Shown one piece after another: positions 29,601-56,600 of a stretch of 64,000 nt of DNA. Position 1 is the first letter of the stretch; each line of letters opens with the position of its first letter. A program made the translations under genes and the position numbers. Source of the DNA: Arcuatula senhousia (taxonomy: Eukaryota; Mollusca; Bivalvia; Mytilida; Mytilidae); NCBI GenBank assembly GCA_963971305.1, contig OZ020306.1, positions 65,321,022-65,385,021 on the forward strand, given 5' to 3'. Under the pieces are notes generated by a model that saw only the letters and a program-made list of their open reading frames with translations, searched no databases and had not been told where the DNA came from.

Positions 29601-32600
29601 TGTATATATATACATGTATAATTAGAAAGTGGAATTTTGTACCACTGCCTTTTTGAATACCAAAGAACTACTGTGGTTTCATGATTATTTGTTGGGTATC
29701 AATTTCTTTGGTTTTCATGGGTGGTCCGGACCCATGAAATTTGATACCCAGCGAAAAGGAAATGTAACATTGATCTGTATGTATGCTGCAGATTTCAGAA
29801 CCACAAATCTAAAAATCCATGAACTTATTAATTTTTATCAAACCACGAAAATTGGTTCCCACGAAAATAAATGAATCCACAGTAATTACTTCCCACTTTC
29901 CTTAGCAACAAAAACAAAGAAAAAACCACAAACTCAACAAAAAATAGCGAAAAAAAATCTTCAAAATCTCATGAATGTTTATCAAAGAAGCAAATAAGCA
30001 ACAGTGGGGCATTCTATTGTCTAAAGTTCAAAAGGGCAATGACAAAACCAGCAAACATGAGTGAGAACAGCATGAAGAAACATCAAACATAAAAAACACA
30101 GACTCAGCCAAACAGAAATCAACAACTTGAACTCAAGTCATAACAATTGTGAACTCAGGTGCTCTGGAAGAGTAAGCAGTTCCTGCTTGCAATAGCACAG
30201 TCCTTTCCTTTGTTATTTCCCAGAGGTAGCCCGAATAACTGAACACTGTACCAAAGTGAACTAGCCCAAACAATGGAAAGTTCACCAGAGGTTACTAGCC
30301 CGAATGAATTTTTAGTAGTCCCGGGCTTTCGGCTACCTGTTAAAGGCGAGCACTGATAGCACACCTGTCATGCTGTCAAATCCCCAGGTCAAATCCAGTA
30401 AAGGAACACAATACAAAACCCTATGACAAACCTCCGAGAGATAAAAATATCAATTCATGTTACTTATTGACCATTTTGGAATGATGATATTACTTTTTTC
30501 CAGTTTAGGTAAAATTATTGATAATATGTAAATGATCTTTAACCTTTGAGAGTGTAAGTAATCTAAAATCTGATTGGTTATGACAAGCTGTCTATCAAAA
30601 GTTAACAGATTATTGGCCCTGTTAAACTTGACATATCAAGCTACAAATTTGTTAAATCAGTGTTGATGTATGGATTGACAACAAAATTTCCAAACAAATA
30701 AAAAAACAAGATGCCCAAACTAAGAAAAAGACAGTTGGGTACACATGGGATGTGCCTGCTGGGTTAAAATTAATCAATACTTAACTTTGTCTTGAAGTTT
30801 AATTATAATTTCCTTCCTTTAGTTTATACCCTTGCACTTGGAAATTGGGTGGTATGTAGTGATAGAAGTGTTTGTCTATCCTTGTGTAACTTTTACTATC
30901 TTAATAATCGTAGATTAAAAAAAAATCAGTTGTTTTATATGTTCACATGGTTTTTATGTCCCATCTACAATAGAAGGGGACAAATAGTGTTCAGGTCTGT
31001 CTGTTTGTTTGTCCGTTCCAAATGTTGTAAGATTGGGGCATTATGTCTTTTAAACATGTGTTTTTTTTTTTTTAATTCTCTTTATTTCTACCAACTTTTA
31101 TTGGAATCTTTAGGTTTTTAACCTTTGATTGTTTGAATTCAAGTTCTCTTTTGAATAAGCCTTGAAACTTGTAACTTTTCTATTGACTCCCAGTTTGGTA
31201 CTAATTTGTATGTAAAAAGAACCATATAAAAAGTAGGTCATTGATCTAAGACTAAGTTATATAAGTGCCCTTACCCGTGAATCTGTTTATAATCTTACAG
31301 TCACAGTGACCATACTGGAAATATGATTTTAACGACAAAAGGTAAAGATTATTATATTATACATTGTGTGACAAAATTAATTAAAACTTAATTAACAAAA
31401 GATGTAATTAACTTAAAGTTTTTTCTGTCCATTTTTCAGGCCAAGCTGGGAACCTTGTTTGGAGTGTACCTGCCTACCATACAGAATATATTTGGTGTCT
31501 TACTGTTTATTAGAATGACATGGATAGTGGGTATGGCAGGACTCTTTGAGAGTCTTGGGATAGTCTCTATATGCTGTTTGACGGTAAGTATTCATGGTGT
31601 GTTACTGTTTATTAGAATGACATGGATTGTGGGTATGGCAGGACTCTTCGAGAGTCTTGGGATAGTCTCTATATGCTGTTTGACGGTAAGTATTCATGGT
31701 GTCTTACTGTTTATTAGAATGACATGGATCATGGGTATGGCAGGACTCTTTGAGAGTCTTGGGATAGTCTCCATATGTTGTCTGACTGTAAGTATTCATG
31801 GTGTCTTACTGTTTATTAGAATGACATGGATTGTGGGTATGGCAGGACTCTTTGAGAGTCTCGGGATAGTCTCTATATGTTGTCTGACTGTAAGTATTCA
31901 TGGTGTGTTACTGTTTATTAGAATGACATGGATTGTGGGTATGGCAGGACTCTTTGAGAGTCTTGGGATAGTCTCTATATGCTGTCTGACTGTAAGTATT
32001 CATGGTGTGTTACTGTTTATTAGAATGACATGGATTGTGGGTATGGCAGGACTCTTTGAGAGTCTTGGGATAGTCTCTATATGTTGTCTGACGGTAAGTA
32101 TTCATGGTGTCTTACTGTTTATTAGAATGACATGGATTGTGGGTATGGCAGGACTCTTTGAGAGTCTTGGGATAGTCTCTATATGCTGTCTGACGGTAAG
32201 TATTCATGGTGTCTTACTGTTTATTAGAATGACATGGATTGTGGGTATGGCAGGACTCTTTGAGAGTCTCGGGATAGTCTCTATATGCTGTCTGACGGTA
32301 AGTATTCATGGTGTGTTACTGTTTATTAGAATGACATGGATCATGGGTATGGCAGGACTCTTCGAGAGTCTTGGGATAGTCTCTATATGCTGTCTGACTG
32401 TAAGTATTCATGGTGTGTTACTGTTTATTAGAATGACATGGATTGTGGGTATGGCAGGACTCTTTGAGAGTCTTGGGATAGTCTCTATATGCTGTCTGAC
32501 AGTAAGTATTCATGGTGTGTTACTGTTTATTAGAATGACATGGATTGTGGGTATGGCAGGACTCTTTGAGAGTCTTGGGATAGTCTCTATATGCTGTCTG

Positions 32601-35600
32601 ACGGTAAGTATTCATGGTGTGTTACTGTTTATTAGAATGACATGGATTGTGGGTATGGCAGGACTCTTTGAGAGTCTCGGGATAGTCTCTATATGCTGTC
32701 TGACGGTAAGTATTCATGGTGTCCTACTGTTTATTAGAATGACATGGATTGTGGGTATGGCAGGACTCTTTGAGAGTCTTGGGATAGTCTCTATATGCTG
32801 TCTGACGGTAAGTATTCATGGTGTGTTACTGTTTATTAGAATGACATGGATTGTGGGTATGGCAGGACTCTTTGAGAGTCTTGGGATAGTCTCTATATGC
32901 TGTCTGACGGTAAGTATTCATGGTGTGTTACTGTTTATTAGAATGACATGGATAGTGGGTATGGCAGGACTCTTTGAGAGTCTTGGGATAGTCTCTATAT
33001 GCTGTCTGACAGTAAGTATTCATGGTGTGTTACTGTTTATTAGAATGACATGGATTGTGGGTATGGCAGGACTCTTCGAGAGTCTTGGGATAGTCTCCAT
33101 ATGCTGTCTGACTGTAAGTATTCATGGTGTGTTACTGTTTATTAGAATGACATGGATTGTGGGTATGGCAGGACTCTTTGAGAGTCTTGGGATAGTCTCT
33201 ATATGTTGTCTGACTGTAAGTATTCATGGTGTGTTACTGTTCATTAGAATGACATGGATTGTGGGTATGGCAGGACTCTTTGAGAGTCTCGGGATAGTCT
33301 CTATATGTTGTCTGACTGTAAGTATTCATGGTGTGTTACTGTTTATTAGAATGACATGGATAGTGGGTATGGCAGGACTCTTTGAGAGTCTCGGGATAGT
33401 CTCTATATGCTGTCTGACGGTAAGTATTCATGGTGTGTTACTGTTTATTAGAATGACATGGATTGTGGGTATGGCAGGACTCTTTGAGAGTCTTGGGATA
33501 GTCTCTATATGCTGTCTGACGGTAAGTATTCATGGTGTGTTACTGTTTATTAGAATGACATGGATTGTGGGTATGGCAGGACTCTTTGAGAGTCTTGGGA
33601 TAGTCTCTATATGCTGTCTGACTGTAAGTATTCATGGTGTGTTACTGTTTATTAGAATGACATGGATTGTGGGTATGGCAGGACTCTTTGAGAGTCTTGG
33701 GATAGTCTCTATATGCTGTCTGACGGTAAGTATTCATGGTGTGTTACTGTTTATTAGAATGACATGGATAGTGGGTATGGCAGGACTCTTTGAGAGTCTT
33801 GGGATAGTCTCTATATGTTGTCTGACGGTAAGTATTCATGGTGTGTTACTGTTTATTAGAATGACATGGATGGTGGGTATGGCAGGACTCTTCGAGAGTC
33901 TTGGGATAGTCTCTATATGCTGTCTGACGGTAAGTATTCATGGTGTGTTACTGTTTATTTGAATGACATGGATTGTGGGTATGGCAGGACTCTTTGAGAG
34001 TCTTGGGATAGTCTCTATATGCTGTCTGACGGTAAGTATTTATGGTGTGTTACTGTTTATTTGAATGACATGGATTGTGGGTATGGCAGGACTCTTTGAG
34101 AGTCTTGGGATAGTCTCTATATGCTGTCTGACGGTAAGTATTTATGGTGTGTTACTGTTTATTTGAATGACATGGATTGTGGGTATGGCAGGACTCTTCG
34201 AGAGTCTTGGGATAGTCTCTATATGCTGTCTGACGGTAAGTATTCATGGTGTGTTACTGTTTATTAGAATGACATGGATTGTGGGTATGGCAGGACTCTT
34301 TGAGAGTCTTGGGATAGTCTCTATATGCTGTCTGACGGTAAGTATTCATGGTGTGTTACTGTTTATTAGAATGACATGGATTGTGGGTATGGCAGGACTC
34401 TTTGAGAGTCTTGGGATAGTCTCTATATGTTGTCTGACGGTAAGTATTCATGGTGTGTTACTGTTTATTAGAATGACATGGATTGTGGGTATGGCAGGAC
34501 TCTTTGAGAGTCTTGGGATAGTCTCTATATGCTGTCTGACGGTAAGTATTCATGGTGTTACTGTTTATTAGAATGACATGGATCGTGGGTATGGCAGGAC
34601 TCTTTTAGAGTCTCGGGATAGTCTCTATATGCTGTCTGACGGTAAGTATTTATGGTGTGTTACTGTTTATTAGAATGACATGGATTGTGGGTATGGCAGG
34701 ACTCTTTGAGAGTCTTGGGATAGTCTCTATATGCTGTCTGACGGTAAGTATTTATGGTGTGTTACTGTTTATTAGAATGACATGGATTGTGGGTATGGCA
34801 GGACTCTTCGAGAGTCTTGGGATAGTCTCTATATGCTGTCTGACGGTAAGTATTCATGGTGTCTTACTGTTTATTAGAATGACATGGATCGTTGGTATGG
34901 CAGGACTCTTTTAGAGTCTTGGGATAGTCTCTATATGCTGTTTGACGGTAAGTATTCATGGTGTGTTACTGTTTATTAGAATGACATGGATTGTGGGTAT
35001 GGCAGGACTCTTTGAGAGTCTTGGGATAGTCTCTATATGTTGTCTGACAGTAAGTATTCATGGTGTGTTACTGTTTATTAGAATGACATGGATTGTGGGT
35101 ATGGCAGTACTCTTTGAGAGTCTTGGGATAGTCTCTATATGTTGTCTGACTGTAAGTATTCATGGTGTGTTACTGTTTATTAGAATGACATGGATTGTGG
35201 GTATGGCAGGACTCTTTGAGAGTCTCGGGATAGTCTCTATATGCTGTCTGACTGTAAGTATTCATGGTGTGTTACTGTTTATTAGAATGACATGGATTGT
35301 GGGTATGGCAGGACTCTTTGAGAGTCTCGGGATAGTCTCTATATGTTGTCTGACTGTAAGTATTCATGGTGTGTTACTGTTTATTAGAATGACATGGATC
35401 ATGGGTATGGCAGGACTCTTTGAGAGTCTTGGGATAGTCTCTATATGCTGTCTGACTGTAAGTATTCATGGTGTGTTACTGTTTATTAGAATGACATGGA
35501 TTGTGGGTATGGCAGGACTCTTCGAGAGTCTTGGGATAGTCTCTATATGCTGTCTGACGGTAAGTATTCATGGTGTGTTACTGTTTATTAGAATGACATG

Positions 35601-38600
35601 GATTGTGGGTATGGCAGGACTCTTCGAGAGTCTTGGGATAGTCTCTATATGCTGTTTGACGGTAAGTATTCATGGTGTGTTACTGTTTATTAGAATGACA
35701 TGGATTGTGGGTATGGCAGGACTCTTCGAGAGTCTTGGGATAGTCTCTATATGCTGTCTGACGGTAAGTATTCATGGTGTGTTACTGTTTATTAGAATGA
35801 CATGGATTGTGGGTATGGCAGGACTCTTTGAGAGTCTTGGGATAGTCTCTATATGCTGTCTGACTGTAAGTATTCATGGTGTGTTACTGTTTATTAGAAT
35901 GACATGGATTGTGGGTATGGCAGGACTCTTCGAGAGTCTTGGGATAGTCTCTATATGCTGTCTGACGGTAAGTATTCATGGTGTGTTACTGTTTATTAGA
36001 ATGACATGGATTGTGGGTATGGCAGGACTCTTTGAGAGTCTTGGGATAGTCTCTATATGCTGTTTGACGGTAAGTATTCATGGTGTGTTACTGTTTATTA
36101 GAATGACATGGATTGTGGGTATGGCAGGACTCTTTGAGAGTCTCGGGATAGTCTCTATATGTTGTCTGACAGTAAGTATTCATGGTGTGTTACTGTTTAT
36201 TAGAATGACATGGATCATGGGTATGGCAGGACTCTTCGAGAGTCTTGGGATAGTCTCTATATGCTGTTTGACGGTAAGTATTCATGGTGTGTTACTGTTT
36301 ATTAGAATGACATGGATCATGGGTATGGCAGGACTCTTCGAGAGTCTTGGGATAGTCTCTATATGCTGTCTGACGGTAAGTATTCATGGTGTCCTACTGT
36401 TTATTAGAATGACATGGATTGTGGGTATGGCAGGACTCTTCGAGAGTCTTGGGATAGTCTCTATATGCTGTTTGACGGTAAGTATTCATGGTGTCTTACT
36501 GTTTATTAGAATGACATGGATCGTGGGTATGGCAGGACTCTTTTAGAGTCTCGGGATAGTCTCTATATGCTGTCTGACTGTAAGTATTCATGGTGTGTTA
36601 CTGTTTATTAGAATGACATGGATCATGGGTATGGCAGGACTCTTCGAGAGTCTTGGGATAGTCTCTATATGTTGTCTGACGGTAAGTATTCATGGTGTGT
36701 TACTGTTCATTAGAATGACATGGATTGTGGGTATGGCAGGACTCTTTGAGAGTCTTGGGATAGTCTCTATATGCTGTTTGACGGTAAGTATTCATGGTGT
36801 GTTACTGTTTATTAGAATGACATGGATTGTGGGTATGGCAGGACTCTTTGAGAGTCTTGGGATAGTCTCTATATGCTGTCTGACGGTAAGTATTCATGGT
36901 GTGTTACTGTTTATTAGAATGACATGGATTGTGGGTATGGCAGGACTCTTCGAGAGTCTTGGGATAGTCTCTATATGCTGTCTGACAGTAAGTATTCATG
37001 GTGTGTTACTGTTTATTAGAATGACATGGATTGTGGGTATGGCAGGACTCTTTGAGAGTCTCGGGATAGTCTCTATATGTTGTCTGACTGTAAGTATTCA
37101 TGGTGTGTTACTGTTTATTAGAATGACATGGATTGTGGGTATGGCAGGACTCTTTGAGAGTCTTGGGATAGTCTCTATATGCTGTCTGACGGTAAGTATT
37201 CATGGTGTGTTACTGTTTATTAGAATGACATGGATTGTGGGTATGGCAGGACTCTTTGAGAGTCTTGGGATAGTCTCTATATGCTGTCTGACGGTAAGTA
37301 TTCATGGTGTTACTGTTTATTAGAATGACATGGATAGTGGGTATGGCAGGACTCTTTGAGAGTCTTGGGATAGTCTCTATATGCTGTCTGACGGTAAGTA
37401 TTCATGGTGTTACTGTTTATTAGAATGACATGGATTGTGGGTATGGCAGGACTCTTCGAGAGTCTTGGGATAGTCTCCATATGCTGTCTGACGGTAAGTA
37501 TTCATGGTGTCTTACTGTTTATTAGAATGACATGGATTGTGGGTATGGCAGGACTCTTTGAGAGTCTTGGGATAGTCTCTATATGTTGTTTGACGGTAAG
37601 TATTCATGGTGTGTTACTGTTTATTAGAATGACATGGATTGTGGGTATGGCAGGACTCTTTGAGAGTCTTGGGATAGTCTCTATATGTTGTCTGACTGTA
37701 AGTATTCATGGTGTGTTACTGTTCATTAGAATGACATGGATTGTGGGTATGGCAGGACTCTTCGAGAGTCTTGGGATAGTCTCCATATGCTGTCTGACGG
37801 TAAGTATTCATGGTGTCTTACTGTTTATTAGAATGACATGGATAGTGGGTATGGCAGGACTCTTTGAGAGTCTTGGGATAGTCTCCATATGCTGTCTGAC
37901 GGTAAGTATTCATGGTGTCTTACTGTTTATTAGAATGACATGGATAGTGGGTATGGCAGGACTCTTTGAGAGTCTTGGGATAGTCTCTATATGTTGTCTG
38001 ACGGTAAGTATTCATGGTGTGTTACTGTTTATTAGAATGACATGGATTGTGGGTATGGCAGGACTCTTCGAGAGTCTCGGGATAGTCTCTATATGCTGTC
38101 TGACGGTAAGTATTCATGGTGTCTTACTGTTTATTAGAATGACATGGATTGTGGGTATGGCAGGACTCTTTGAGAGTCTTGGGATAGTCTCTATATGCTG
38201 TTTGACGGTAAGTATTCATGGTGTGTAACTGTTTATTAGAATGACATGGATTGTTGGTATGGCAGGACTCTTTGAGAGTCTCGGGATAGTCTCTATATGC
38301 TGTCTGACTGTAAGTATTCATGGTGTGTAACTGTTTATTAGAATGACATGGATTGTGGGTATGGCAGGACTCTTTGAGAGTCTTGGGATAGTCTCTATAT
38401 GTTGTTTGACGGTAAGTATTCATGGTGTGTTACTGTTTATTAGAATGACATGGATTGTTGGTATGGCAGGACTCTTCGAGAGTCTTGGGATAGTCTCTAT
38501 ATGCTGTTTGACGGTAAGTATTCATGGTGTGTTACTGTTTATTAGAATGACATGGATTGTGGGTATGGCAGGACTCTTTGAGAGTCTCGGGATAGTCTCT

Positions 38601-41600
38601 ATATGCTGTCTGACGGTAAGTATTCATGGTGTGTTACTGTTTATTAGAATGACATGGATTGTGGGTATGGCAGGACTCTTTGAGAGTCTTGGGATAGTCT
38701 CTATATGTTGTTTGACGGTAAGTATTCATGGTGTGTTACTGTTTATTAGAATGACATGGATTGTGGGTATGGCAGGACTCTTTGAGAGTCTTGGGATAGT
38801 CTCTATATGTTGTCTGACAGTAAGTATTTATGGTGTGTTACTGTTTATTTGAATGACATGGATTGTGGGTATGGCAGGACTCTTTGAGAGTCTTGGGATA
38901 GTCTCTATATGTTGTCTGACTGTAAGTATTCATGGTGTGTTACTGTTTATTAGAATGACATGGATTGTGGGTATGGCAGGACTCTTTGAGAGTCTTGGGA
39001 TAGTCTCTATATGTTGTCTGACGGTAAGTATTCATGGTGTGTTACTGTTTATTAGAATGACATGGATTGTGGGTATGGCAGGACTCTTTGAAAGTCTCGG
39101 GATAGTCTCTATATGCTGTTTGACGGTAAGTATTCATGGTGTGTTACTGTTTATTAGAATGACATGGATTGTGGGTATGGCAGGACTCTTCGAGAGTCTT
39201 GGGATAGTCTCTATATGCTGTCTGACGGTAAGTATTCATGGTGTGTTACTGTTTATTAGAATGACATGGATTGTGGGTATGGCAGGACTCTTCGAGAGTC
39301 TTGGGATAGTCTCTATATGCTGTCTGACTGTAAGTATTCATGGTGTGTTACTGTTTATTAGAATGACATGGATTGTGGGTATGGCAGGACTCTTTGAGAG
39401 TCTCGGGATAGTCTCTATATGCTGTCTGACGGTAAGTATTCATGGTGTGTTACTGTTTATTAGAATGACATGGATTGTGGGTATGGCAGGACTCTTCGAG
39501 AGTCTTGGGATAGTCTCCATATGCTGTCTGACGGTAAGTATTTATGGTGTGTTACTGTTTATTAGAATGACATGGATTGTGGGTATGGCAGGACTCTTTG
39601 AGAGTCTTGGGATAGTCTCTATATGTTGTTTGACGGTAAGTATTCATGGTGTGTTACTGTTTATTAGAATGACATGGATTGTGGGTATGGCAGGACTCTT
39701 TGAGAGTCTTGGGATAGTCTCTATATGTTGTCTGACAGTAAGTATTTATGGTGTGTTACTGTTTATTTGAATGACATGGATTGTGGGTATGGCAGGACTC
39801 TTTGAGAGTCTTGGGATAGTCTCTATATGTTGTCTGACTGTAAGTATTCATGGTGTGTTACTGTTTATTAGAATGACATGGATTGTGGGTATGGCAGGAC
39901 TCTTTGAGAGTCTTGGGATAGTCTCTATATGTTGTCTGACGGTAAGTATTCATGGTGTGTTACTGTTTATTAGAATGACATGGATTGTGGGTATGGCAGG
40001 ACTCTTTGAAAGTCTCGGGATAGTCTCTATATGCTGTTTGACGGTAAGTATTCATGGTGTGTTACTGTTTATTAGAATGACATGGATTGTGGGTATGGCA
40101 GGACTCTTCGAGAGTCTTGGGATAGTCTCTATATGCTGTCTGACGGTAAGTATTCATGGTGTGTTACTGTTTATTAGAATGACATGGATTGTGGGTATGG
40201 CAGGACTCTTCGAGAGTCTTGGGATAGTCTCTATATGCTGTCTGACTGTAAGTATTCATGGTGTGTTACTGTTTATTAGAATGACATGGATTGTGGGTAT
40301 GGCAGGACTCTTTGAGAGTCTCGGGATAGTCTCTATATGCTGTCTGACGGTAAGTATTCATGGTGTGTTACTGTTTATTAGAATGACATGGATTGTGGGT
40401 ATGGCAGGACTCTTCGAGAGTCTTGGGATAGTCTCCATATGCTGTCTGACGGTAAGTATTTATGGTGTGTTACTGTTTATTAGAATGACATGGATTGTGG
40501 GTATGGCAGGACTCTTTGAGAGTCTCGGGATAGTCTCCATATGCTGTCTGACGGTAAGTATTCATGGTGTCTTACTGTTTATTAGAATGACATGGATTGT
40601 GGGTATGGCAGGACTCTTTGAGAGTCTCGGGATAGTCTCTATATGTTGTCTGACTGTAAGTATTCATGGTGTGTTACTGTTTATTAGAATGACATGGATA
40701 GTGGGTATGGCAGGACTCTTTGAGAGTCTTGGGATAGTCTCTATATGTTGTCTGACTGTAAGTATTCATGGTGTGTTACTGTTTATTAGAATGACATGGA
40801 TTGTGGGTATGGCAGGACTCTTTGAGAGTCTCGGGATAGTCTCTATATGTTGTCTGACTGTAAGTATTCATGGTGTGTTACTGTTTATTAGAATGACATG
40901 GATTGTGGGTATGGCAGGACTCTTTGAGAGTCTTGGGATAGTCTCTATATGCTGTTTGACGGTAAGTATTCATGGTGTGTTACTGTTTATTAGAATGACA
41001 TGGATTGTGGGTATGGCAGGACTCTTTGAGAGTCTTGGGATAGTCTCTATATGCTGTCTGACGGTAAGTATTCATGGTGTGTTACTGTTTATTAGAATGA
41101 CATGGATTGTGGGTATTGCAGGACTCTTCGAGAGTCTCGGGATAGTCTCTATATGTTGTCTGACGGTAAGTATTCATGGTGTGTTACTGTTTTTTAGAAT
41201 GACATGGATTGTGGGTGTGGCAGGACTCTTCGAGAGTCTTGGGATAGTCTCTATATGCTGTCTGACTGTAAGTATTCATGGTGTGTTACTGTTTATTAGA
41301 ATGACATGGATTGTGGGTATGGCAGGACTCTTCGAGAGTCTTGGGATAGTCTCTATATGCTGTCTGACAGTAAGTATTTATGGTGTCCTACTGTTTATTA
41401 GAATGACATGGATCATGGGTATGGCAGGACTCTTCGAGAGTCTTGGGATAGTCTCTATATGCTGTCTGACGGTAAGTATACATGGTGTGTTACTGTTTAT
41501 TAGAATGACATGGATTGTTGGTATGGCAGGACTCTTTGAGAGTCTTGGGATAGTCTCTATATGCTGTCTGACGGTAAGTATTTATGGTGTCCTACTGTTT

Positions 41601-44600
41601 ATTAGAATGACATGGATTGTGGGTATGGCAGGACTCTTTGAGAGTCTCGGGATAGTCTCTATATGTTGTCTGACGGTAAGTATTCATGGTGTGTTACTGT
41701 TTATTAGAATGACATGGATTGTGGGTGTGGCAGGACTCTTCGAGAGTCTTGGGATAGTCTCTATATGCTGTCTGACGGTAAGTATTCATGGTGTGTTACT
41801 GTTTATTAGAATGACATGGATTGTGGGTATGGCAGGACTCTTCGAGAGTCTTGGGATAGTCTCTATATGCTGTCTGACAGTAAGTATTTATGGTGTCCTA
41901 CTGTTTATTAGAATGACATGGATCATGGGTATGGCAGGACTCTTCGAGAGTCTTGGGATAGTCTCTATATGCTGTCTGACGGTAAGTATACATGGTGTGT
42001 TACTGTTTATTAGAATGACATGGATTGTTGGTATGGCAGGACTCTTTGAGAGTCTTGGGATAGTCTCTATATGCTGTCTGACGGTAAGTATTTATGGTGT
42101 CCTACTGTTTATTAGAATGACATGGATCATGGGTATGGCAGGACTCTTCGAGAGTCTTGGGATAGTCTCTATATGCTGTCTGACGGTAAGTATTCATGGT
42201 GTGTTACTGTTTATTAGAATGACATGGATCTTGGGTATGGCAGGACTCTTTGAGAGTCTCGGGATAGTCTCTATATGCTGTTTGACGGTAAGTATTCATG
42301 GTGTGTTACTGTTTATTAGAATGACATGGATCGAGGGTATGGCAGGACTCTTTGAGAGTCTCGGGATAGTCTCTATATGTTGTCTGACGGTAAGTATTCA
42401 TGGTGTGTTACTGTTTATTAGAATGACATGGATTGTGGGTATGGCAGGACTCTTCGAGAGTCTTGGGATAGTCTCTATATGTTGTCTGACGGTAAGTATT
42501 CATGGTGTGTTACTGTTTATTAGAATGACATGGATTGTGGGTATGGCAGGACTCTTCGAGAGTCTTGGGATAGTCTCTATATGCTGTCTGACGGTAAGTA
42601 TTCATGGTGTGTTACTGTTCATTAGAATGACATGGATTGTGGGTATGGCAGGACTCTTTGAGAGTCTTGGGATAGTCTCTATATGCTGTCTGACGGTAAG
42701 TATTCATGGTGTGTTACTGTTTATTAGAATGACATGGATCGTGGGTATGGCAGGACTCTTTGAGAGTCTTGGGATAGTCTCTATATGTTGTCTGACGGTA
42801 AGTATTCATGGTGTGTTACTGTTTATTAGAATGACATGGATCGTGGGTATGGCAGGACTCTTTGAGAGTCTTGGGATAGTCTCTATATGTTGTCTGACTG
42901 TAAGTATTCATGGTGTGTTACTGTTCATTAGAATGACATGGATTGTGGGTATGGCAGGACTCTTTGAGAGTCTTGGGATAGTCTCTATATGCTGTCTGAC
43001 TGTAAGTATTCATGGTGTGTTACTGTTTATTAGAATGACATGGATTGTGGGTATGGCAGGACTCTTCGAGAGTCTTGGGATAGTCTCTATATGTTGTCTG
43101 ACGGTAAGTATTCATGGTGTGTTACTGTTTATTAGAATGACATGGATTGTGGGTATGGCAGGACTCTTCGAGAGTCTTGGGATAGTCTCTATATGTTGTC
43201 TGACAGTAAGTATTCATGATGTGTTACTGTTTATTAGAATGACATGGATTGTGGGTATGGCAGGACTCTTTGAGAGTCTTGGGATAGTCTCTATATGCTG
43301 TTTGACGGTAAGTATTCATGGTGTGTTACTGTTTATTAGAATGACATGGATTGTGGGTATGGCAGGACTCTTCGAGAGTCTTGGGATAGTCTCTATATGC
43401 TGTCTGACGGTAAGTATTCATGGTGTGTTACTGTTTATTAGAATGACATGGATCGTGGGTATGGCAGGACTCTTCGAGAGTCTTGGGATAGTCTCTATAT
43501 GCTGTTTGACGGTAAGTATTCATGGTGTGTTACTGTTTATTAGAATGACATGGATCGTGGGTATGGCAGGACTCTTTTAGAGTCTCGGGATAGTCTCTAT
43601 ATGCTGTTTGACGGTAAGTATTCATGGTGTGTTACTGTTTATTAGAATGACATGGATTGTGGGTATGGCAGGACTCTTCGAGAGTCTTGGGATAGTCTCT
43701 ATATCCTGTCTGACTGTAAGTATTCATGGTGTGTTACTGTTTATTAGAATGACATGGATCGTTGGTATGGCAGGACTCTTTGAGAGTCTTGGGATAGTCT
43801 CTATATGTTGTCTGACGGTAAGTATTCATGATGTGTTACTGTTTATTAGAATGACATGGATTGTGGGTATGGCAGGACTCTTCGAGAGTCTTGGGATAGT
43901 CTCTATATGCTGTTTGACGGTAAGTATTCATGGTGTCTTACTGTTTATTAGAATGACATGGATTGTGGGTATGGCAGGACTCTTTGAGAGTCTTGGGATA
44001 GTCTCTATATGTTGTCTGACTGTAAGTATTCATGGTGTGTTACTGTTTATTAGAATGACATGGATTGTGGGTATGGCAGGACTCTTCGAGAGTCTTGGGA
44101 TAGTCTCTATATGTTGTCTGACGGTAAGTATTCATGGTGTGTTACTGTTTATTAGAATGACATGGATCGTGGGTATGGCAGGACTCTTTGAGAGTCTTGG
44201 GATAGTCTCTATATGTTGTCTGACTGTAAGTATTCATGGTGTGTTACTGTTTATTAGAATGACATGGATTGTGGGTATGGCAGGACTCTTTGAGAGTCTC
44301 GGGATAGTCTCTATATGCTGTCTGACGGTAAGTATTCATGGTGTCTTACTGTTTATTAGAATGACATGGATTGTGGGTATGGCAGGACTCTTCGAGAGTC
44401 TTGGGATAGTCTCTATATGCTGTCTGACGGTAAGTATTCATGGTGTGTTACTGTTTATTAGAATGACATGGATCGTGGGTATGGCAGGACTCTTTGAGAG
44501 TCTTGGGATAGTCTCTATATGCTGTCTGACGGTAAGTATTTATGGTGTGTTACTGTTTATTAGAATGACATGGATTGTGGGTATGGCAGGACTCTTTGAG

Positions 44601-47600
44601 AGTCTTGGGATAGTCTCTATATGCTGTCTGACGGTAAGTATTCATGGTGTGTTACTGTTTATTAGAATGACATGGATAGTGGGCATGGCAGGACTCTTCG
44701 AGAGTCTTGGGATAGTCTCTATATGTTGTCTGACGGTAAGTATTTATGGTGTGTTACTGTTTATTAGAATGACATGGATCATGGGTATGGCAGGACTCTT
44801 CGAGAGTCTTGGGATAGTCTCTATATGCTGTCTGACGGTAAGTATTCATGGTGTGTTACTGTTTATTAGAATGACATGGATAGTGGGTATGGCAGGACTC
44901 TTTGAGAGTCTTGGGATAGTCTCTATATGCTGTCTGACGGTAAGTATTCATGGTGTGTTACTGTTTATTAGAATGACATGGATTGTGGGTATGGCAGGAC
45001 TCTTTGAGAGTCTTGGGATAGTCTCTATATGCTGTCTGACGGTAAGTATTCATGGTGTCCTACTGTTTATTAGAATGACATGGATTGTGGGTATGGCAGG
45101 ACTCTTTGAGAGTCTTGGGATAGTCTCTATATGCTGTCTGACGGTAAGTATTCATGGTGTGTTACTGTTCATTAGAATGACATGGATTGTGGGTATGGCA
45201 GGACTCTTTGAGAGTCTTGGGATAGTCTCTATATGCTGTCTGACGGTAAGTATTCATGGTGTGTTACTGTTTATTAGAATGACATGGATTGTGGGTATGG
45301 CAGGACTCTTTGAGAGTCTTGGGATAGTCTCTATATGCTGTTTGACTGTAAGTATTCATGGTGTGTTACTGTTTATTAGAATGACATGGATTGTGGGTAT
45401 GGCAGGACTCTTTGAGAGTCTTGGGATAGTCTCTATATGCTGTCTGACGGTAAGTATTCATGGTGTGTTACTGTTTATTAGAATGACATGGATTGTGGGT
45501 ATGGCAGGACTCTTTGAGAGTCTTGGGATAGTCTCTATATGCTGTCTGACAGTAAGTATTCATGGTGTGTTACTGTTTATTAGAATGACATGGATTGTGG
45601 GTATGGCAGGACTCTTTGAGAGTCTTGGGATAGTCTCTATATGCTGTCTGACAGTAAGTATTCATGGTGTGTTACTGTTTATTAGAATGACATGGATTGT
45701 GGGTATGGCAGGACTCTTCGAGAGTCTTGGGATAGTCTCTATATGTTGTCTGACTGTAAGTATTCATGGTGTGTTACTGTTTATTAGAATGACATGGATT
45801 GTGGGTATGGCAGGACTCTTCGAGAGTCTTGGGATAGTCTCTATATGCTGTTTGACTGTAAGTATTCATGGTGTGTTACTGTTTATTAGAATGACATGGA
45901 TTGTGGGTATGGCAGGACTCTTTGAGAGTCTTGGGATAGTCTCTATATGCTGTCTGACGGTAAGTATTCATGGTGTGTTACTGTTTATTAGAATGACATG
46001 GATAGTGGGTATGGCAGGACTCTTTGAGAGTCTCGGGATAGTCTCTATATGTTGTCTGACTGTAAGTATTCATGGTGTGTTACTGTTTATTAGAATGACA
46101 TGGATAGTGGGTATGGCAGGACTCTTTGAGAGTCTTGGGATAGTCTCTATATGTTGTCTGACTGTAAGTATTCATGGTGTGTTACTGTTCATTAGAATGA
46201 CATGGATTGTGGGTATGGCAGGACTCTTTGAGAGTCTTGGGATAGTCTCTATATGTTGTCTGACGGTAAGTATTCATGGTGTGTTACTGTTTATTAGAAT
46301 GACATGGATTGTGGGTATGGCAGGACTCTTTGAGAGTCTTGGGATAGTCTCTATATGCTGTCTGACGGTAAGTATTCATGGTGTGTTACTGTTTATTAGA
46401 ATGACATGGATCATGGGTATGGCAGGACTCTTTGAGAGTCTTGGGATAGTCTCTATATGCTGTTTGACGGTAAGTATTCATGGTGTGTTACTGTTTATTA
46501 GAATGACATGGATTGTGGGTATGGCAGGACTCTTTGAGAGTCTTGGGATAGTCTCTATATGCTGTCTGACTGTAAGTATTCATGGTGTGTTACTGTTTAT
46601 TAGAATGACATGGATTGTGGGTATGGCAGGACTCTTCGAGAGTCTTGGGATAGTCTCTATATGCTGTCTGACGGTAAGTATTCATGGTGTGTTACTGTTT
46701 ATTAGAATGACATGGATAGTGGGTATGGCAGGACTCTTTGAGAGTCTTGGGATAGTCTCTATATGTTGTCTGACTGTAAGTATTCATGGTGTGTTACTGT
46801 TTATTAGAATGACATGGATAGTGGGTATGGCAGGACTCTTTGAGAGTCTTGGGATAGTCTCTATATGTTGTCTGACTGTAAGTATTCATGGTGTGTTACT
46901 GTTCATTAGAATGACATGGATTGTGGGTATGGCAGGACTCTTCGAGAGTCTTGGGATAGTCTCTATATGCTGTCTGACGGTAAGTATTCATGGTGTGTTA
47001 CTGTTCATTAGAATGACATGGATTGTGGGTATGGCAGGACTCTTTGAGAGTCTTGGGATAGTCTCTATATGCTGTCTGACGGTAAGTATTCATGGTGTCC
47101 TACTGTTTATTAGAATGACATGGATTGTGGGCATGGCAGGACTCTTCGAGAGTCTCGGGATAGTCTCTATATGCTGTCTGACTGTAAGTATTCATGGTGT
47201 GTTACTGTTTATTAGAATGACATGGATTGTGGGTATGGCAGGACTCTTTGAGAGTCTCGGGATAGTCTCTATATGCTGTCTGACGGTAAGTATTCATGGT
47301 GTGTTACTGTTTATTAGAATGACATGGATCGTGGGTATGGCAGGACTCTTTGAGAGTCTCGGGATAGTCTCTATATGTTGTCTGACGGTAAGTATTCATG
47401 GTGTGTTACTGTTTATTAGAATGACATGGTTTGTGGGTATGGCAGGACTCTTTGAGAGTCTTGGGATAGTCTCTATATGCTGTCTGACGGTAAGTATTCA
47501 TGGTGTCCTACTGTTTATTAGAATGACATGGATTGTGGGTATGGCAGGACTCTTCGAGAGTCTCGGGATAGTCTCTATATGTTGTCTGACGGTAAGTATA

Positions 47601-50600
47601 CATGGTGTGTTACTGTTTATTAGAATGACATGGATTGTGGGTATGGCAGGACTCTTTGAGAGTCTTGGGATAGTCTCTATATGTTGTCTGACGGTAAGTA
47701 TTCATGGTGTGTTACTGTTTATTAGAATGACATGGATTGTGGGTATGGCAGGACTCTTTGAGAGTCTTGGGATAGTCTCTATATGTTGTCTGACGGTAAG
47801 TATTCATGGTGTGTTACTGTTTATTAGAATGACATGGATTGTGGGTATGGCAGGACTCTTCGAGAGTCTTGGGATAGTCTCTATATGCTGTTTGACGGTA
47901 AGTATTCATGGTGTGTTACTGTTTATTAGAATGACATGGATTGTTGGTATGGCAGGACTCTTTGAGAGTCTTGGGATAGTCTCTATATGCTGTCTGACGG
48001 TAAGTATTCATGGTGTCCTACTGTTTATTAGAATGACATGGATTGTGGGTATGGCAGTACTCTTTGAGAGTCTTGGGATAGTCTCTATATGTTGTCTGAC
48101 GGTAAGTATTCATGATGTGTTACTGTTTATTAGAATGACATGGATCGTGGGTATGGCAGGACTCTTCGAGAGTCTTGGGATAGTCTCTATATGCTGTCTG
48201 ACGGTAAGTATTCATGGTGTGTTACTGTTTATTAGAATGACATGGATTGTGGGTATGGCAGGACTCTTTGAGAGTCTCGGGATAGTCTCTATATGCTGTC
48301 TGACGGTAAGTATTCATGGTGTGTTACTGTTTATTAGAATGACATGGATTGTTGGTATTTCAGGACTCTTTGAGAGTCTTGGGATAGTCTCTATATGCTG
48401 TCTGACGGTAAGTATTCATGGTGTGTTACTGTTTATTAGAATGACATGGATAGTGGGTATGGCAGGACTCTTTGAGAGTCTTGGGATAGTCTCTATATGC
48501 TGTCTGACGGTAAGTATTCATGGTGTGTTACTGTTTATTAGAATGACATGGATTGTGGGTATGGCAGGACTCTTTGAGAGTCTTGGGATAGTCTCTATAT
48601 GTTGTCTGACTGTAAGTATTCATGGTGTGTTACTGTTTATTAGAATGACATGGATTGTGGGTATGGCAGGACTCTTTGAGAGTCTCGGGATAGTCTCCAT
48701 ATGCTGTCTGACGGTAAGTATTCATGGTGTGTTACTGTTTATTAGAATGACATGGATGGTGGGTATGGCAGGACTCTTTGAGAGTCTTGGGATAGTCTCT
48801 ATATGCTGTCTGACGGTAAGTATTTATGGTGTGTTACTGTTTATTAGAATGACATGGATTGTGGGTATGGCAGGACTCTTTGAGAGTCTTGGGATAGTCT
48901 CTATATGCTGTCTGACTGTAAGTATTCATGGTGTGTTACTGTTTATTAGAATGACATGGATCATGGGTATGGCAGGACTCTTCGAGAGTCTTGGGATAGT
49001 CTCTATATGCTGTCTGACGGTAAGTATTCATGGTGTGTTACTGTTTATTAGAATGACATGGATTGTGGGTATGGCAGGACTCTTTGAGAGTCTTGGGATA
49101 GTCTCTATATGTTGTTTGACGGTAAGTATTCATGGTGTGTTACTGTTTATTAGAATGACATGGATTGTGGGTATGGCAGGACTCTTCGAGAGTCTTGGGA
49201 TAGTCTCTATATGCTGTTTGACGGTAAGTATTCATGGTGTGTTACTGTTTATTAGAATGACATGGATTGTGGGTATGGCAGGACTCTTTGAGAGTCTCGG
49301 GATAGTCTCTATATGCTGTCTGACTGTAAGTATTCATGGTGTGTTACTGTTTATTAGAATGACATGGATTGTGGGTATGGCAGGACTCTTTGAGAGTCTT
49401 GGGATAGTCTCTATATGCTGTCTGACTGTAAGTATTCATGGTGTGTTACTGTTCATTAGAATGACATGGATTGTGGGTATGGCAGGACTCTTTGAGAGTC
49501 TTGGGATAGTCTCTATATGCTGTTTGACGGTAAGTATTCATGGTGTGTTACTGTTTATTAGAATGACATGGATTGTGGGTATGGCAGGACTCTTTGAGAG
49601 TCTCGGGATAGTCTCTATATGCTGTCTGACGGTAAGTATTCATGGTGTGTTACTGTTTATTAGAATGACATGGATTGTGGGTATGGCAGGACTCTTTGAG
49701 AGTCTTGGGATAGTCTCTATATGCTGTTTGACGGTAAGTATTCATGGTGTGTTACTGTTTATTAGAATGACATGGATTGTGGGTATGGCAGGACTCTTTG
49801 AGAGTCTTGGGATAGTCTCTATATGTTGTCTGACTGTAAGTATTCATGGTGTGTTACTGTTTATTAGAATGACATGGATCATGGGTATGGCAGGACTCTT
49901 CGAGAGTCTTGGGATAGTCTCTATATGCTGTTTGACGGTAAGTATTCATGGTGTGTTACTGTTTATTAGAATGACATGGATTGTGGGTATGGCAGGACTC
50001 TTTGAGAGTCTTGGGATAGTCTCTATATGTTGTCTGACTGTAAGTATTCATGGTGTGTTACTGTTTATTAGAATGACATGGATCATGGGTATGGCAGGAC
50101 TCTTCGAGAGTCTTGGGATAGTCTCTATATGCTGTTTGACTGTAAGTATTCATGGTGTGTTACTGTTTATTAGAATGACATGGATTGTGGGTATGGCAGG
50201 ACTCTTCGAGAGTCTTGGGATAGTCTCTATATGCTGTCTGACGGTAAGTATTCATGGTGTGTTACTGTTTATTAGAATGACATGGATCATGGGTATGGCA
50301 GGACTCTTCGAGAGTCTTGGGATAGTCTCTATATGCTGTTTGACTGTAAGTATTCATGGTGTGTTACTGTTTATTAGAATGACATGGATTGTGGGTATGG
50401 CAGGACTCTTCGAGAGTCTGGGGATAGTCTCTATATGCTGTCTGACGGTAAGTATTTATGGTGTGTTACTGTTCATTAGAATGACATGGATCATGGGTAT
50501 GGCAGGACTCTTCGAGAGTCTTGGGATAGTCTCTATATGCTGTCTGACAGTAAGTATTCATGATGTGTTACTGTTTATTAGAATGACATGGATCATGGGT

Positions 50601-53600
50601 ATGGCAGGACTCTTCGAGAGTCTTGGGATAGTCTCTATATGCTGTTTGACGGTAAGTATTCATGGTGTGTTACTGTTTATTAGAATGACATGGATTGTGG
50701 GTATGGCAGGACTCTTTGAGAGTCTTGGGATAGTCTCTATATGTTGTCTGACTGTAAGTATTCATGGTGTGTTACTGTTTATTAGAATGACATGGATTGT
50801 GGGTATGGCAGGACTCTTCGAGAGTCTCGGGATAGTCTCTATATGCTGTCTGACTGTAAGTATTCATGGTGTGTTACTGTTTATTAGAATGACATGGATT
50901 GTGGGTATGGCAGGACTCTTCGAGAGTCTTGGGATAGTCTCTATATGTTGTCTGACGGTAAGTATTCATGGTGTGTTACTGTTCATTAGAATGACATGGA
51001 TTGTGGGTATGGCAGGACTCTTCGAGAGTCTTGGGATAGTCTCTATATGTTGTCTGACGGTAAGTATACATGGTGTGTTACTGTTTATTAGAATGACATG
51101 GATTGTGGGTATGGCAGGACTCTTCGAGAGTCTTGGGATAGTCTCTATATGTTGTCTGACGGTAAGTATTCATGGTGTGTTACTGTTTATTAGAATGACA
51201 TGGATTGTGGGTATGGCAGGACTCTTTGAGAGTCTCGGGATAGTCTCTATATGTTGTCTGACGGTAAGTATTCATGGTGTTACTGTTTATTAGAATGACA
51301 TGGATGGTGGGTATGGCAGGACTCTTCGAGAGTCTTGGGATAGTCTCTATATGCTGTCTGACGGTAAGTATTCATGGTGTGTTACTGTTTATTAGAATGA
51401 CATGGATTGTGGGTATGGCAGGACTCTTCGAGAGTCTTGGGATAGTCTCTATATGCTGTCTGACGGTAAGTATTCATGGTGTGTTACTGTTTATTAGAAT
51501 GACATGGATTGTGGGCATGGCAGGACTCTTTGAGAGTCTTGGGATAGTCTCTATATGTTGTCTGACGGTAAGTATTCATGGTGTGTTACTGTTTATTAGA
51601 ATGACATGGATCGTTGGTATGGCAGGACTCTTTGAGAGTCTTGGGATAGTCTCTATATGTTGTCTGACGGTAAGTATTCATGGTGTGTTACTGTTTATTA
51701 GAATGACATGGATCATGGGTATGGCAGGACTCGGGATAGTCTCTATATGCTGTCTGACAGTAAGTATTTACTCAAAAAGTTATTTTCCTGCTACAATGTA
51801 TAAGATGATAATATGGCTGACATTTTTGGCTCTCTTTGCCTTTTAACCCCAAAATTGAAAGGCCTCATAAGCTTTGAAGTGTGTAAGTATGAATTTCTAT
51901 CAAGGAGTTTAAAAGTAATGCTCCCACACGAATCTGGATAGAGAGGAAGCTATTAAGTCCTTAGGTTATTCCAGAAAATTGGAAAAAAAAATATGGCCTT
52001 ATAAGTTAAATATTACAGGTCTCTGAGTTGAAATCATTTTATGCCATTATAAAGAATGTTTTAAACATCAACATTTTGTTTTGATTTAATATATTCTCCT
52101 TGCTGCTCAACAGTAGATAAGTTTATATATTCAAAATTATAAGTAGAGTTTATATATAATAATTATTATTATTTACTAAGTGACTCCTTTCCCTCTCACT
52201 GCAGCAATGCAGTAAATGAAATAACAGATAAAGAAAAGCAGATAAGATTTTGTTTCATCTATTACTTCAATACCCAGTTGCAAAATCTAATATCAAATAT
52301 TCCAATCGTACAAACAAACATTAGACATGATGATGCATTCAATAAATAAAATGTAGTCTCGTAGTTTCTTATGATGTGAAGTTGATTTGATTTCAAGAAG
52401 ATGTAATAACTCTTTCTGTAAGAATGAAGAGATATTGTTTTGCCGAGGATCGTTTTTAACATCTCTCTCTATTCTAATGATATATTACAAGCAATATTAG
52501 ATTTGACTTAAGCACCATGTTTCATTTCTTGGTGTTGCCTCTGGGGGTTTGAGTATTGCTTCAATTGACATGGAGCATTACAAGTTTTCTACATTTGTTC
52601 AATATTTGTTGTGCAGTTCTGATATCTTTATGATTACATGTTGCTGTTTTTATGCAGTTATTTGTTTACAATAACCAAACCTATCATGGTAATATTAATA
52701 TTTCCCAACTGGAATGATCAATTACAAATGTCTAAGTAGTAACAATTGATTGGAGATCACAATGGTCTTGACTTGGGTCCAGTCAATTAGAAAAGAAAAT
52801 GGTTTGTTGAACCAGGTTTTATGGCACAAATCTCACTTTTCAATTTTGTTCTTGGGGTTCTGTACGTAGTAACCAGAATTTTAAGCATTTAGAAACATGT
52901 TTAATTTATCCAAAAAATTGAAGTCAGTTCGGACTCGATCCCTTGGACATTTTTTCCTGTAAAAGCCCTGATCTAAAATCATAAGAGAGGCATTTTGTTG
53001 TGTTAGAATTAGTTGTCATGTGTTCTTCTTATAATGAACTTTACAGTATTGCCTTATTTTATTCACAAGGTTGGAGGCCATGGCCTAATTTTTATGGTCT
53101 TTTAGGCATGATTTTAATGAAGAAGCCTGAAATAATTGACCTGTTACCAACACAATCTTAAAATTGAGTAATAACCTAAAGAAAAAATAATAAATATTCT
53201 CTTTTTTACCATAACATCACTCTATTGATAAAGTACTTATGTTTGCTTTACAATTTGTTTGCCTTTTTCAGACCATGTTGACAGCCATATCTATGAGTGC
53301 TATAGCTACAAATGGTGTGGTCCCTGCAGGAGGGTCCTACTTTATGATATCTAGAGCCCTAGGGCCCGAGTTTGGAGGAGCAGTGGGGACCCTGTTTTAT
53401 CTTGGGACTACAGTGGCGTCCTCTATGTATATCATTGGTTCTGTAGAGATTTTATTGGTAAGGTTGACCATGTACTGTATAACTCGTAATTGTTGCAGAT
53501 TAGAATGAAACTTCTGTGATTTTATTTTTGCAGATTTTAATTTTTGTAGTTTTGCATCTTTATTTACACATACCAAAAGACTGACCATTAGCTCCATACT

Positions 53601-56600
53601 TTATATGCCATTTTAAATTTTGTGGCTGTGTGGCCACTGTGAAATAATGCAAAAATTAAATTACCACAAAAATTACCAGTTGTATGATATGAATAATTGT
53701 GCTGAAAAAAGACAAATCGTGAAAAAATGTTGCATTTAAAACCATTATTAACCCTTTACTTCAATGTAAAAACAAATGTCAAATACAGTCTTGTAATCGA
53801 TGCCCAGTTCTATGAAACATCTCAAATTTGGATTTCTTCATCTTCAAATCTCCAAAGGATTTCCTGTACCTAGCTATGACCTTAAGAGGAGAATTTTTAA
53901 GAAATATTCAATAAGAAATGTTTTATGAAAACCCAAGCTTGACCTATTCAAGAGCAATAAGTTGAAGCAATAACTCTACACTAATACTCCTTAACAGAGT
54001 TACTGCTTTACAGCATACATAACTACTATTTACATCTCCAAAATCACCACTCTTTGTAAGGTTTCTAAGACATAAGTAATGGTAACAGACATCCATACAT
54101 CTACTGATAATCTTCAGTCGGTCAAAGATGGTTTTAGATCATCAGATAAATAAATAGTGCTATTGGTAAATCAGCGTTCAAGACAAAATAATTGTATGTC
54201 TTTTATTTTGGAGGCTTTTGTTGTTATTCAATAGATAATAGTTAACTATAGAAGAAAGGGGTCAATATTTAGGTCATGTTGACATATGATGTCTATTTGG
54301 AACTAGGACAAGTAAGAAAGATGGCAACTCTTAAATGTAAAGGTTCATTTACACTAAAACCACACAAAACCTGATGTTGCCAGTAACAGTTTTAATAAAA
54401 GTAGTTAAAATTTTAAATTATTAATTTATTAGAGACAATAAGATATAAAAAAAAAAACAATCTTCAGATAATCCTCATTTTAAGAAAAAAGTTACACAAA
54501 GAACTTTCAAGTGTATGTGGTACCACTTCCAGAAACCAAATAAAAAAATTTAAGTGAAAAACTGCTTGCAGCCTTTAATTAATTAATGTGACCTACGGTA
54601 TAGCTGGTTATTTTCGCAGTGGTTTTATTTTGGCGGATCAATGACAAGCACGAAAATAAAACCCACGAAATATTTAAGCTAAAGACAGTTATTTTCTTTG
54701 GTGTGATTCCTATCTTTTTAAGGCTTTATGGATCACTATTCTTTTACTCAGTAAATTCTTAAAAGTTAATTTACATCTAAATTATTAAAAATGAACATTT
54801 TTCAATCAATTTTTAAAGTTTTATTAATACAGGCAATCCACAAATATTTAAGTTCAAAAGAGTTAGAAGCTTGTACACCCAAGCCTTAATTTCAATTAAT
54901 TGGTGAATATCAATAGACAATTTAAATGAATGATAGAAAACAATTACAATTACATTATTTTTATTTATTAGAATCAACACCTCAATTAATGTTAATTGAT
55001 TACAATTTACGTTTTATTTTCTAAAAAAAACAAGACCATCCTCATAAATTGTGTATGCTCCATGAATGAATGGCGAAAATTAAACCCGTGAAAATTGTTG
55101 AGATACTTTCTGCTTCTATAATCACGAAAATTTACCACCGCGAAAATAACCCGCTATACGGTATGTTCACTGCTATGCCCAATATTTGATTAGAACTGAA
55201 ATCTTATTCATCATAATAATTCCTTATGACTTATTTTCTTTACATTTCAGAAATACATGGCCCCACAAGTGTCGTTGTTCGGTGATGTGACAATTGAATC
55301 TAACGCTTTAAACAATTACCGTGTGTACGGGACATTAATATTACTACTTCTGAGTGTGATAGTTTTTATAGGTGTGAAATTTGTTAGTAAATTTGCTGCG
55401 CTTTCGTTAGCGTGTGTGATATTATCTATATTCTGTATTTATATCGGATTCTTTGTGTCAAATGAGGACAATAGTGTCAAGTAAGTATTGAATATATAAA
55501 TACTGTGGATTCATTTATTTTCGTGGGTACCAATTTTAGTGGTTTGACAATAAGAACTATTTCGAGGAACCTCAAATTCATGGTTCTGAAGCCTGCAGCA
55601 TACAATACTTGTTTAAATTTCATTTTCGTGGAATATCAAATTTCGTGGGTAAGGACCACAAACGAAGACCACGAAAATTGATACCCCACGAATAATAATG
55701 AAACCACAGTAATAATGATTATTGTACATGACACATATATTATCCATGAAACTATAGAAGATAATGAGATGTGGAATAAGTGTATGTGACAAAGCCCACA
55801 AAAACAAGCAGCAATTAAAAAAAACAAAATGAAAAACAGCAGACAGCCTTCAACAGGGTTGCCACGCATCCTTGAAACCTGGAAAAACCCTTGAACTTCA
55901 TTTGTCAGTTCAAGGTCTTGGAAAAATGAAAATATCTTTGAAAACCCTAGAATTTGATAGTTCCATAATCAAAGGTTCATGATTGAACTGTTTCACAAAC
56001 AAAATTCATTGGGGACTGAAATTTTGTCGACTATTTCCATCCTTGAAAATGACTTAAATACCCTTGAAAAGTCCTGGAAAAACCCTCGAAGTTTGCAACA
56101 AGAAAATAGTGGCAACCCTGCTTCAATGAAGCCAGTAGAAGTTGCTTGTTGAAGTCTCATTAAAACTGAAAATCGTACATGGAAAGTAGTCACCAACCAC
56201 AAATGTAAACAAATCTGAGAGTTGTAAAAGATAGGCCCACTTTTTTGACAGCAAAATCCAAAAAACATTGATTAAACGTTTGACAAAGATTGTTTAGCTT
56301 AGTATTTTTCTATACTTTGGTTGTCAACACTCATTATAAAGAGTTGCAAGGCATGATATTATTTAACCTATTATCATTTTCCAGCTCTGATTCTGTTTTT
56401 TTTTCTAAATTCATGAGCTTAAACTTTGAAGGATTTACTTTTTGCAAAAGCATAAAAATTCACACCAAAGTGCATGTGTAGATGACAATTTAACTTGAAT
56501 AACATAGATTTTTAATGAAAATACCTAAATATTTTAAGGATGTATTCTTCTGAGGGGTCAAAATTTTCCTTAATCAAGTTTTTTCCCAAACCTGCTATTT

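Follow-up and report, generated by a model that had tools for sequence, protein, structure and literature searches.

Based on 64,000 nucleotides of the genome of the mytilid bivalve Arcuatula senhousia (GenBank assembly GCA_963971305.1, contig OZ020306.1, positions 65,321,022 to 65,385,021 of the forward strand; hereafter the window), we propose that a gene of the KCC family (SLC12A4-7) tolerates two arrays of its own exon boundaries, one with 199 copies of a splice donor and the other with 12 copies of an acceptor, because the extra copies are intronic decoys. These would be skipped by pairing of the nearest sites, and short-tract exchange with the copy in use would expose the rest to purifying selection; we give this reading a probability of roughly two in three. 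Mechanistically, each array would have grown by tandem duplication across an exon/intron boundary, and exon definition would pick donor 1 at exon 4 (E4) and acceptor 12 at exon 9 (E9). In conjunction, copies would swap short tracts with the one spliced, selected copy, an exchange that would have filtered the common variants. The surplus sites, lying outside the exon-defining pair, would then explain the tolerance of so many usable sites.

The first array (array 1) is built from a 102-bp unit, i.e. a whole number of codons, that joins the end of E4 to the start of the following intron with its donor. Tandem Repeats Finder returns a period of 102 with 198.5 copies and 96% matches (31493-51732), and segmentation resolves 199 units, in agreement with an earlier note on this DNA that had described such a unit repeated over 20 kb. 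The features concerned are as follows.

31440..31583, forward strand: KCC exon E4, 144 nt, phase 0, its last 90 nt being unit 1 of array 1
31494..51770, forward strand: array 1, 199 copies of the 102-bp unit, E4 end and intron start with donor GTAAGTAT
31584..31591, forward strand: first donor GTAAGTAT, predicted to be the one used
33960..33962, forward strand: first in-frame stop of the read-through frame, in unit 25, TGA replacing AGA
38628..40463, forward strand: exact nine-unit block duplication, units 71-79 equal to units 80-88
51760..51767, forward strand: last (199th) donor, followed by unique intron
53272..53457, forward strand: KCC exon E5, whose acceptor ends the intron holding array 1

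The segmentation comprises 194 units of 102 bp, four of 100 bp (units 31, 58, 59 and 195, each with the identical 2-bp deletion) and a last unit with a 12-bp deletion. The distance from the first donor at 31584 to the last at 51760 equals 198 periods less these five indels, bearing out the way in which the earlier note had arrived at 199 copies, and the donor it had placed in every unit is present in 199/199. Roughly 91 nt of each unit come from E4 and the other 11 or so from the intron, which corrects the 87 and 15 bases given before. Placed by KCC topology, it presumably spans the second half of transmembrane segment 1 (TM1), where the note had most of that segment, and the first half of TM2, of which the note had half. 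GTAAGTATTTA, matching the unique intron 3' of unit 199, occurs in 16 of units 1-198, most other units having GTAAGTATTCA. The intron bearing the array measures 21.7 kb, and the rest of the window yielded no further copy of the unit; for an array of 20 kb, chance origin is not a concern. Rfam at gathering scores gave no match, nor did Pfam with the array 1 read-through peptide. Codon 25 of the array 1 units (31566-31568) encodes Ser (GIVSICC) in both E4 and the unit consensus; the residue is Val in the two Mytilus KCCs examined and Ser in 16/196 relatives.

A second array in the same gene (array 2), missing from the earlier note, mirrors array 1. Its 12 copies (59459-60613) of a 96-bp unit, likewise a whole number of codons, each consist of the first 75 nt of E9 and 21 nt of intron with the acceptor.

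58989..59129, forward strand: KCC exon E8, 5' of array 2
59459..60514, forward strand: array 2, 11 extra copies of the 96-bp unit
60515..60613, forward strand: KCC exon E9 proper, the 12th array 2 copy, extending into unique exon sequence, with the weak donor TCT/GTATCC

Only the 12th and last copy continues into the remainder of E9, and all 12 are stop-free on read-through, each encoding the same 25 residues. Splice-site scores here and below come from a small profile built from this gene's own sites. When scored evenly, ten of copies 2-12 have an acceptor score of 7.1, copy 6 has 10.5 and the native first copy 6.2. A unit acceptor stronger than the native one was considered and rejected: its score of 11.4 was obtained only with close kin in the profile, as compared to 7.1 versus 6.2 upon even scoring. 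The unit also contains donor-like GTs scoring 5.7, 5.6 and 2.0, the gene's own donors ranging from -4.3 to 10.7, and the first of these would give an out-of-frame 59-nt exon. The second lies where AG meets GTATAA: from 59459 on, in each copy, the E9 acceptor directly abuts this hexamer (TTTCAG/GTATAATG), an arrangement resembling a recursive splice point. Given these GTs, recursive or cassette use within array 2 may occur.

The variants among the copies show a synonymous bias that the earlier note did not mention. Considering the exon-derived part of array 1, with variants classed as common (9 or more copies) or rare (5 or fewer), 13/14 common variants are synonymous as compared to 3/17 rare ones (Fisher 3.9e-5), with a share of about 0.26 expected. 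These counts, made by hand, cover substitutions outside the 12 intron-derived columns at the unit end (where variants occur in 4 and 16 copies), omit indels, and leave out the private-variant rows of unit 199 that come from its misaligned 12-base gap. Three stop-making changes, in 11 units, are among the rare variants. Array 2 has 7/7 synonymous substitutions, a count omitting one intron-derived change in unit 5; two are private to the 12th copy, and two make up one codon change, CTT/TTA. The common variants look filtered as protein, whereas the rare ones do not and are near-neutral. We modeled birth and death of units with random overwriting among copies and selection on unit 1 alone, a single-lineage simplification that predicts synonymous shares of 0.61 for common and 0.29 for rare variants. 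Exchange of this type would yield the right direction and under-predict the size of the bias, and something more may act.

The arrangement of the variants is likewise compatible with exchange. Association between sites within the array 1 unit has a mean r2 of 0.13 at 1-4 bp and is nearly gone, at background, beyond 30 bp, and neighbouring units are barely more alike than random pairs (3.49 vs 3.71 differences, z -3.1). In array 2, units 10 and 11, adjoining the functional copy, share its TTA-GCT codons. The pattern in array 1 fits prolonged short-tract exchange together with recent block duplication. Part of it could be imitated by assembly polishing, and the almost random scatter of variants over the array could have that origin; an error that inflated a smaller array, or shuffled variants among units, is an alternative to be weighed. 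The 194 full-length units comprise 107 distinct sequences; this and the exact nine-unit duplication argue against a simple assembly stutter. Rare variants common to neighbours (units 25-27 and 67-68) and a second array of different sequence with the same bias likewise speak against error, which we regard as decidedly improbable.

Turning to the choice of sites, donor 1 gives the 144-nt E4, which donor n would lengthen by 102(n-1) nt minus any later deletions, and acceptor 12 gives the 99-nt E9. Nearest-site pairing, with exons of 144 and 99 nt, restores the insert-free sequence of the family. The surplus sites of either array fall outside the smallest exon, and exon definition would therefore ignore them. 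The earlier note had left two outcomes, strict choice of the first donor or a ladder of products. The first donor fits better, and a ladder is possible only up to 24 units: the read-through frame is open through unit 24, stopped in unit 25 and shifted in unit 31, leaving extended products open for donors 2-24 only. The term coding minisatellite, used before, is apt only in part: most copies are probably intronic, the rare variants look unselected, and the frame is interrupted by that stop and that frameshift. Array 1 as a single coding exon is ruled out by the unit 25 stop and the frameshifts from the 2-bp deletions. Units as cassette exons are ruled out by the lack of a good acceptor within the unit, where no AG of the consensus scores above 0.7, a value below 10/11 real acceptors (2.7 to 13.5; that of E10 is -14.1). 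The copies carry donors only, without the acceptor and donor pair of their own that characterizes arrays of cassette or mutually exclusive exons.

Alternatively, splicing may be leaky, a minority of transcripts using donors 2-24 and, at E9, acceptors 1-11 to yield in-frame KCC with 34- or 32-residue inserts, such use keeping nearby units clean. Both units are indeed multiples of 3 and open (array 1 to unit 24), the synonymous excess exceeds that of the model with selection on unit 1 only, and human IFI6 is said, in a citing paper (PMC4526556), to splice from two of its downstream repeat units. Moreover, 30/198 array 1 units are damaged (V12M, a change treated below, is omitted from this count), the first being unit 24, with none among units 1-23 (P = 0.018, post hoc). 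Clean first units are, however, equally expected if exchange with unit 1 declines with distance. Each extra unit would furthermore add a hydrophobic stretch, in TM2 (array 1) or between TM6 and TM7 (array 2), which is expected to upset the fold. Among relatives, no repeat-bearing protein was found: the best 120 of 5330 match the array-2-extended query over at most 43% of its length, the best 120 of 258 match the array 1 read-through over at most 18%, and a second copy of the tested motifs occurs in 0/197 relatives compared. Taken together, we consider leaky use unlikely. An elaboration, in which the opposed arrays generate a combinatorial in-frame transporter ladder that gains as many as 23 units at TM2 and as many as 11 ahead of TM7, and selection acts on the ladder itself, appears quite improbable.

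The presence of GTAAGTAT in every array 1 unit is also compatible with a regulatory RNA element, in which about 200 strong donors in the 21.7-kb intron would bind the U1 small nuclear ribonucleoprotein and alter polyadenylation, speed or output. Eight unchanged columns are nevertheless ordinary here: conservation in 199/199 is not unusual because 74/102 columns do not vary across the 194 full-length units, and we make no claim of selection on the donor itself. Array 2, in addition, multiplies acceptors and not donors, and we hold a regulatory role of this type to be very improbable.

Several observations weigh against skipping by nearest-site pairing combined with exchange. Donor 1 is not distinguished by strength, as all donors with G at -1 (136/199, donor 1 included) score 10.7, and acceptor 12, at 7.1, resembles most copies and falls below copy 6. 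The predicted RNA accessibility of donor 1 ranks 190/199. V12M is common (18 copies) yet nonsynonymous. By frequency class, the exchange model expects 5.2 nonsynonymous variants of 14 where one is seen (P(1 or fewer) = 0.0086). Across the unit junction, association at 30-60 bp is slightly above background (r2 0.011 vs 0.005), and differences to unit 1 amount to 4.0 in units 2-11 and 4.4 beyond unit 24.

Two further candidates were tried and set aside. RNA folding as the cause of donor 1 choice is unsupported, given the accessibility rank; a two-unit stretch of array 1 folds better than 200/200 shuffles (z -3.48). Polar growth from unit 1 has little support, considering the small change in differences to unit 1 and damage without a position trend (Spearman p 0.67).

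The host gene itself is, by sequence, nearer to KCC than to NKCC/NCC. Its closest solved relative is KCC3 (SLC12A6; E 2e-152), the best NKCC reaching 5.7e-48, and the closest proteins among the matches listed are bivalve KCCs, with Mytilus californianus first. Over E4-E12, 401/452 residues (89%) are identical to the KCC of that species. Exons E1-E12 within the window join in phase into 588 codons with 0 stops, and after E12 the gene must continue beyond the window. The remaining exons are located as follows.

15203..15407, forward strand: KCC coding exon E1, with the start codon
23312..23403, forward strand: KCC exon E2
25833..25943, forward strand: KCC exon E3
55251..55480, forward strand: KCC exon E6
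57394..57599, forward strand: KCC exon E7
61234..61291, forward strand: KCC exon E10, with a poor acceptor and the least certain boundary
62998..63116, forward strand: KCC exon E11
63725..63899, forward strand: KCC exon E12

On the own-site profile, the weakest splice sites of the gene are the E9 donor (60613) and the E10 acceptor (61234), and the E9-E10 junction is the least certain for this reason. E9, with one of these weakest sites, is also the exon that carries array 2. A third, small boundary-linked repeat is found at 25944-26060, where the E3 donor GTAAATAG (25944) recurs at 26008 (GTAAATAGG) and 26047 (GTAAATTAG); these copies lie within a 39-bp repeat, are preceded by CCA and not CAG, and are entirely intronic. 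Two arrays of similar 170-bp repeats (GCAACTCCTCT...AAACTACTGAAC) occupy 57676-57987 and 61574-62153 in introns between E7 and E11. Just 3' of the E6 donor, a short dispersed sequence (55497-55540) has further copies on both strands in introns and upstream (24287-24326, 29845-29888, 25578-25615, 28761-28793 and 9146-9183), and is perhaps the end of a mobile element.

A gene with intact exons, 198 further strong donors after one of them and 11 further acceptors before another, represents a natural test of how splicing chooses between identical sites. That common variants are silent and rare ones unfiltered suggests a way in which exchange may let a single selected copy police 20 kb of array, which is a question of concerted evolution.

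The human gene IFI6 (6-16, G1P3), which the earlier note did not bring in, has a repeat unit of 12 nt in about two dozen copies. Each IFI6 unit is reported to hold a consensus donor, as found here in 199/199 units; a frame-keeping unit, another feature of IFI6, is found here too, at 102 nt, open to unit 24, with the unit 25 stop and 2-bp deletions in 4 units. The IFI6 repeat is reported to be a splice-donor minisatellite (Turri, Cuin and Porter 1995, PMC306954), and both genes have units repeated in tandem at the end of an exon, each array thereby providing several splice donors. Unlike IFI6, the KCC gene has 102-nt units, 199 copies and a mirrored acceptor array, and its splice use is predicted from DNA. 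Human genes in segmental duplications have, according to the portion of the paper available, internal tandem repeats at exon-intron boundaries with units of about 30 bp and an average of 4 repeats (PMC2812944). These are likewise boundary minisatellites, which can stay in the exon or be spliced out, whereas the units here are three times longer and far more numerous. The potato RNA-dependent RNA polymerase case, as outlined in the available part of its report (PMC4974935), shares tandem duplication across an exon splice boundary. Intron gain by tandem duplication needs both splice sites; array 1 multiplies donors only and array 2 acceptors, and, in contrast to potato, no complete new intron is evident, though the array 2 unit has donor-like GTs. 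VNTR6-1 in TERT intron 6, a 38-bp unit treated in a paper on TERT splicing (PMC11830802), is similar as a large intronic repeat, an exon-derived sequence not being indicated for it in the accessible portion. In open-licence literature, searched mostly without naming the cotransporter, no KCC gene with such arrays was found; nor, among the papers listed, were an array on such a scale, two mirrored arrays within a single gene, or common variants filtered where rare ones are not. The kind of structure is already known, on what is accessible of these papers, from the IFI6 donor minisatellite and the boundary repeats of human duplicated genes.

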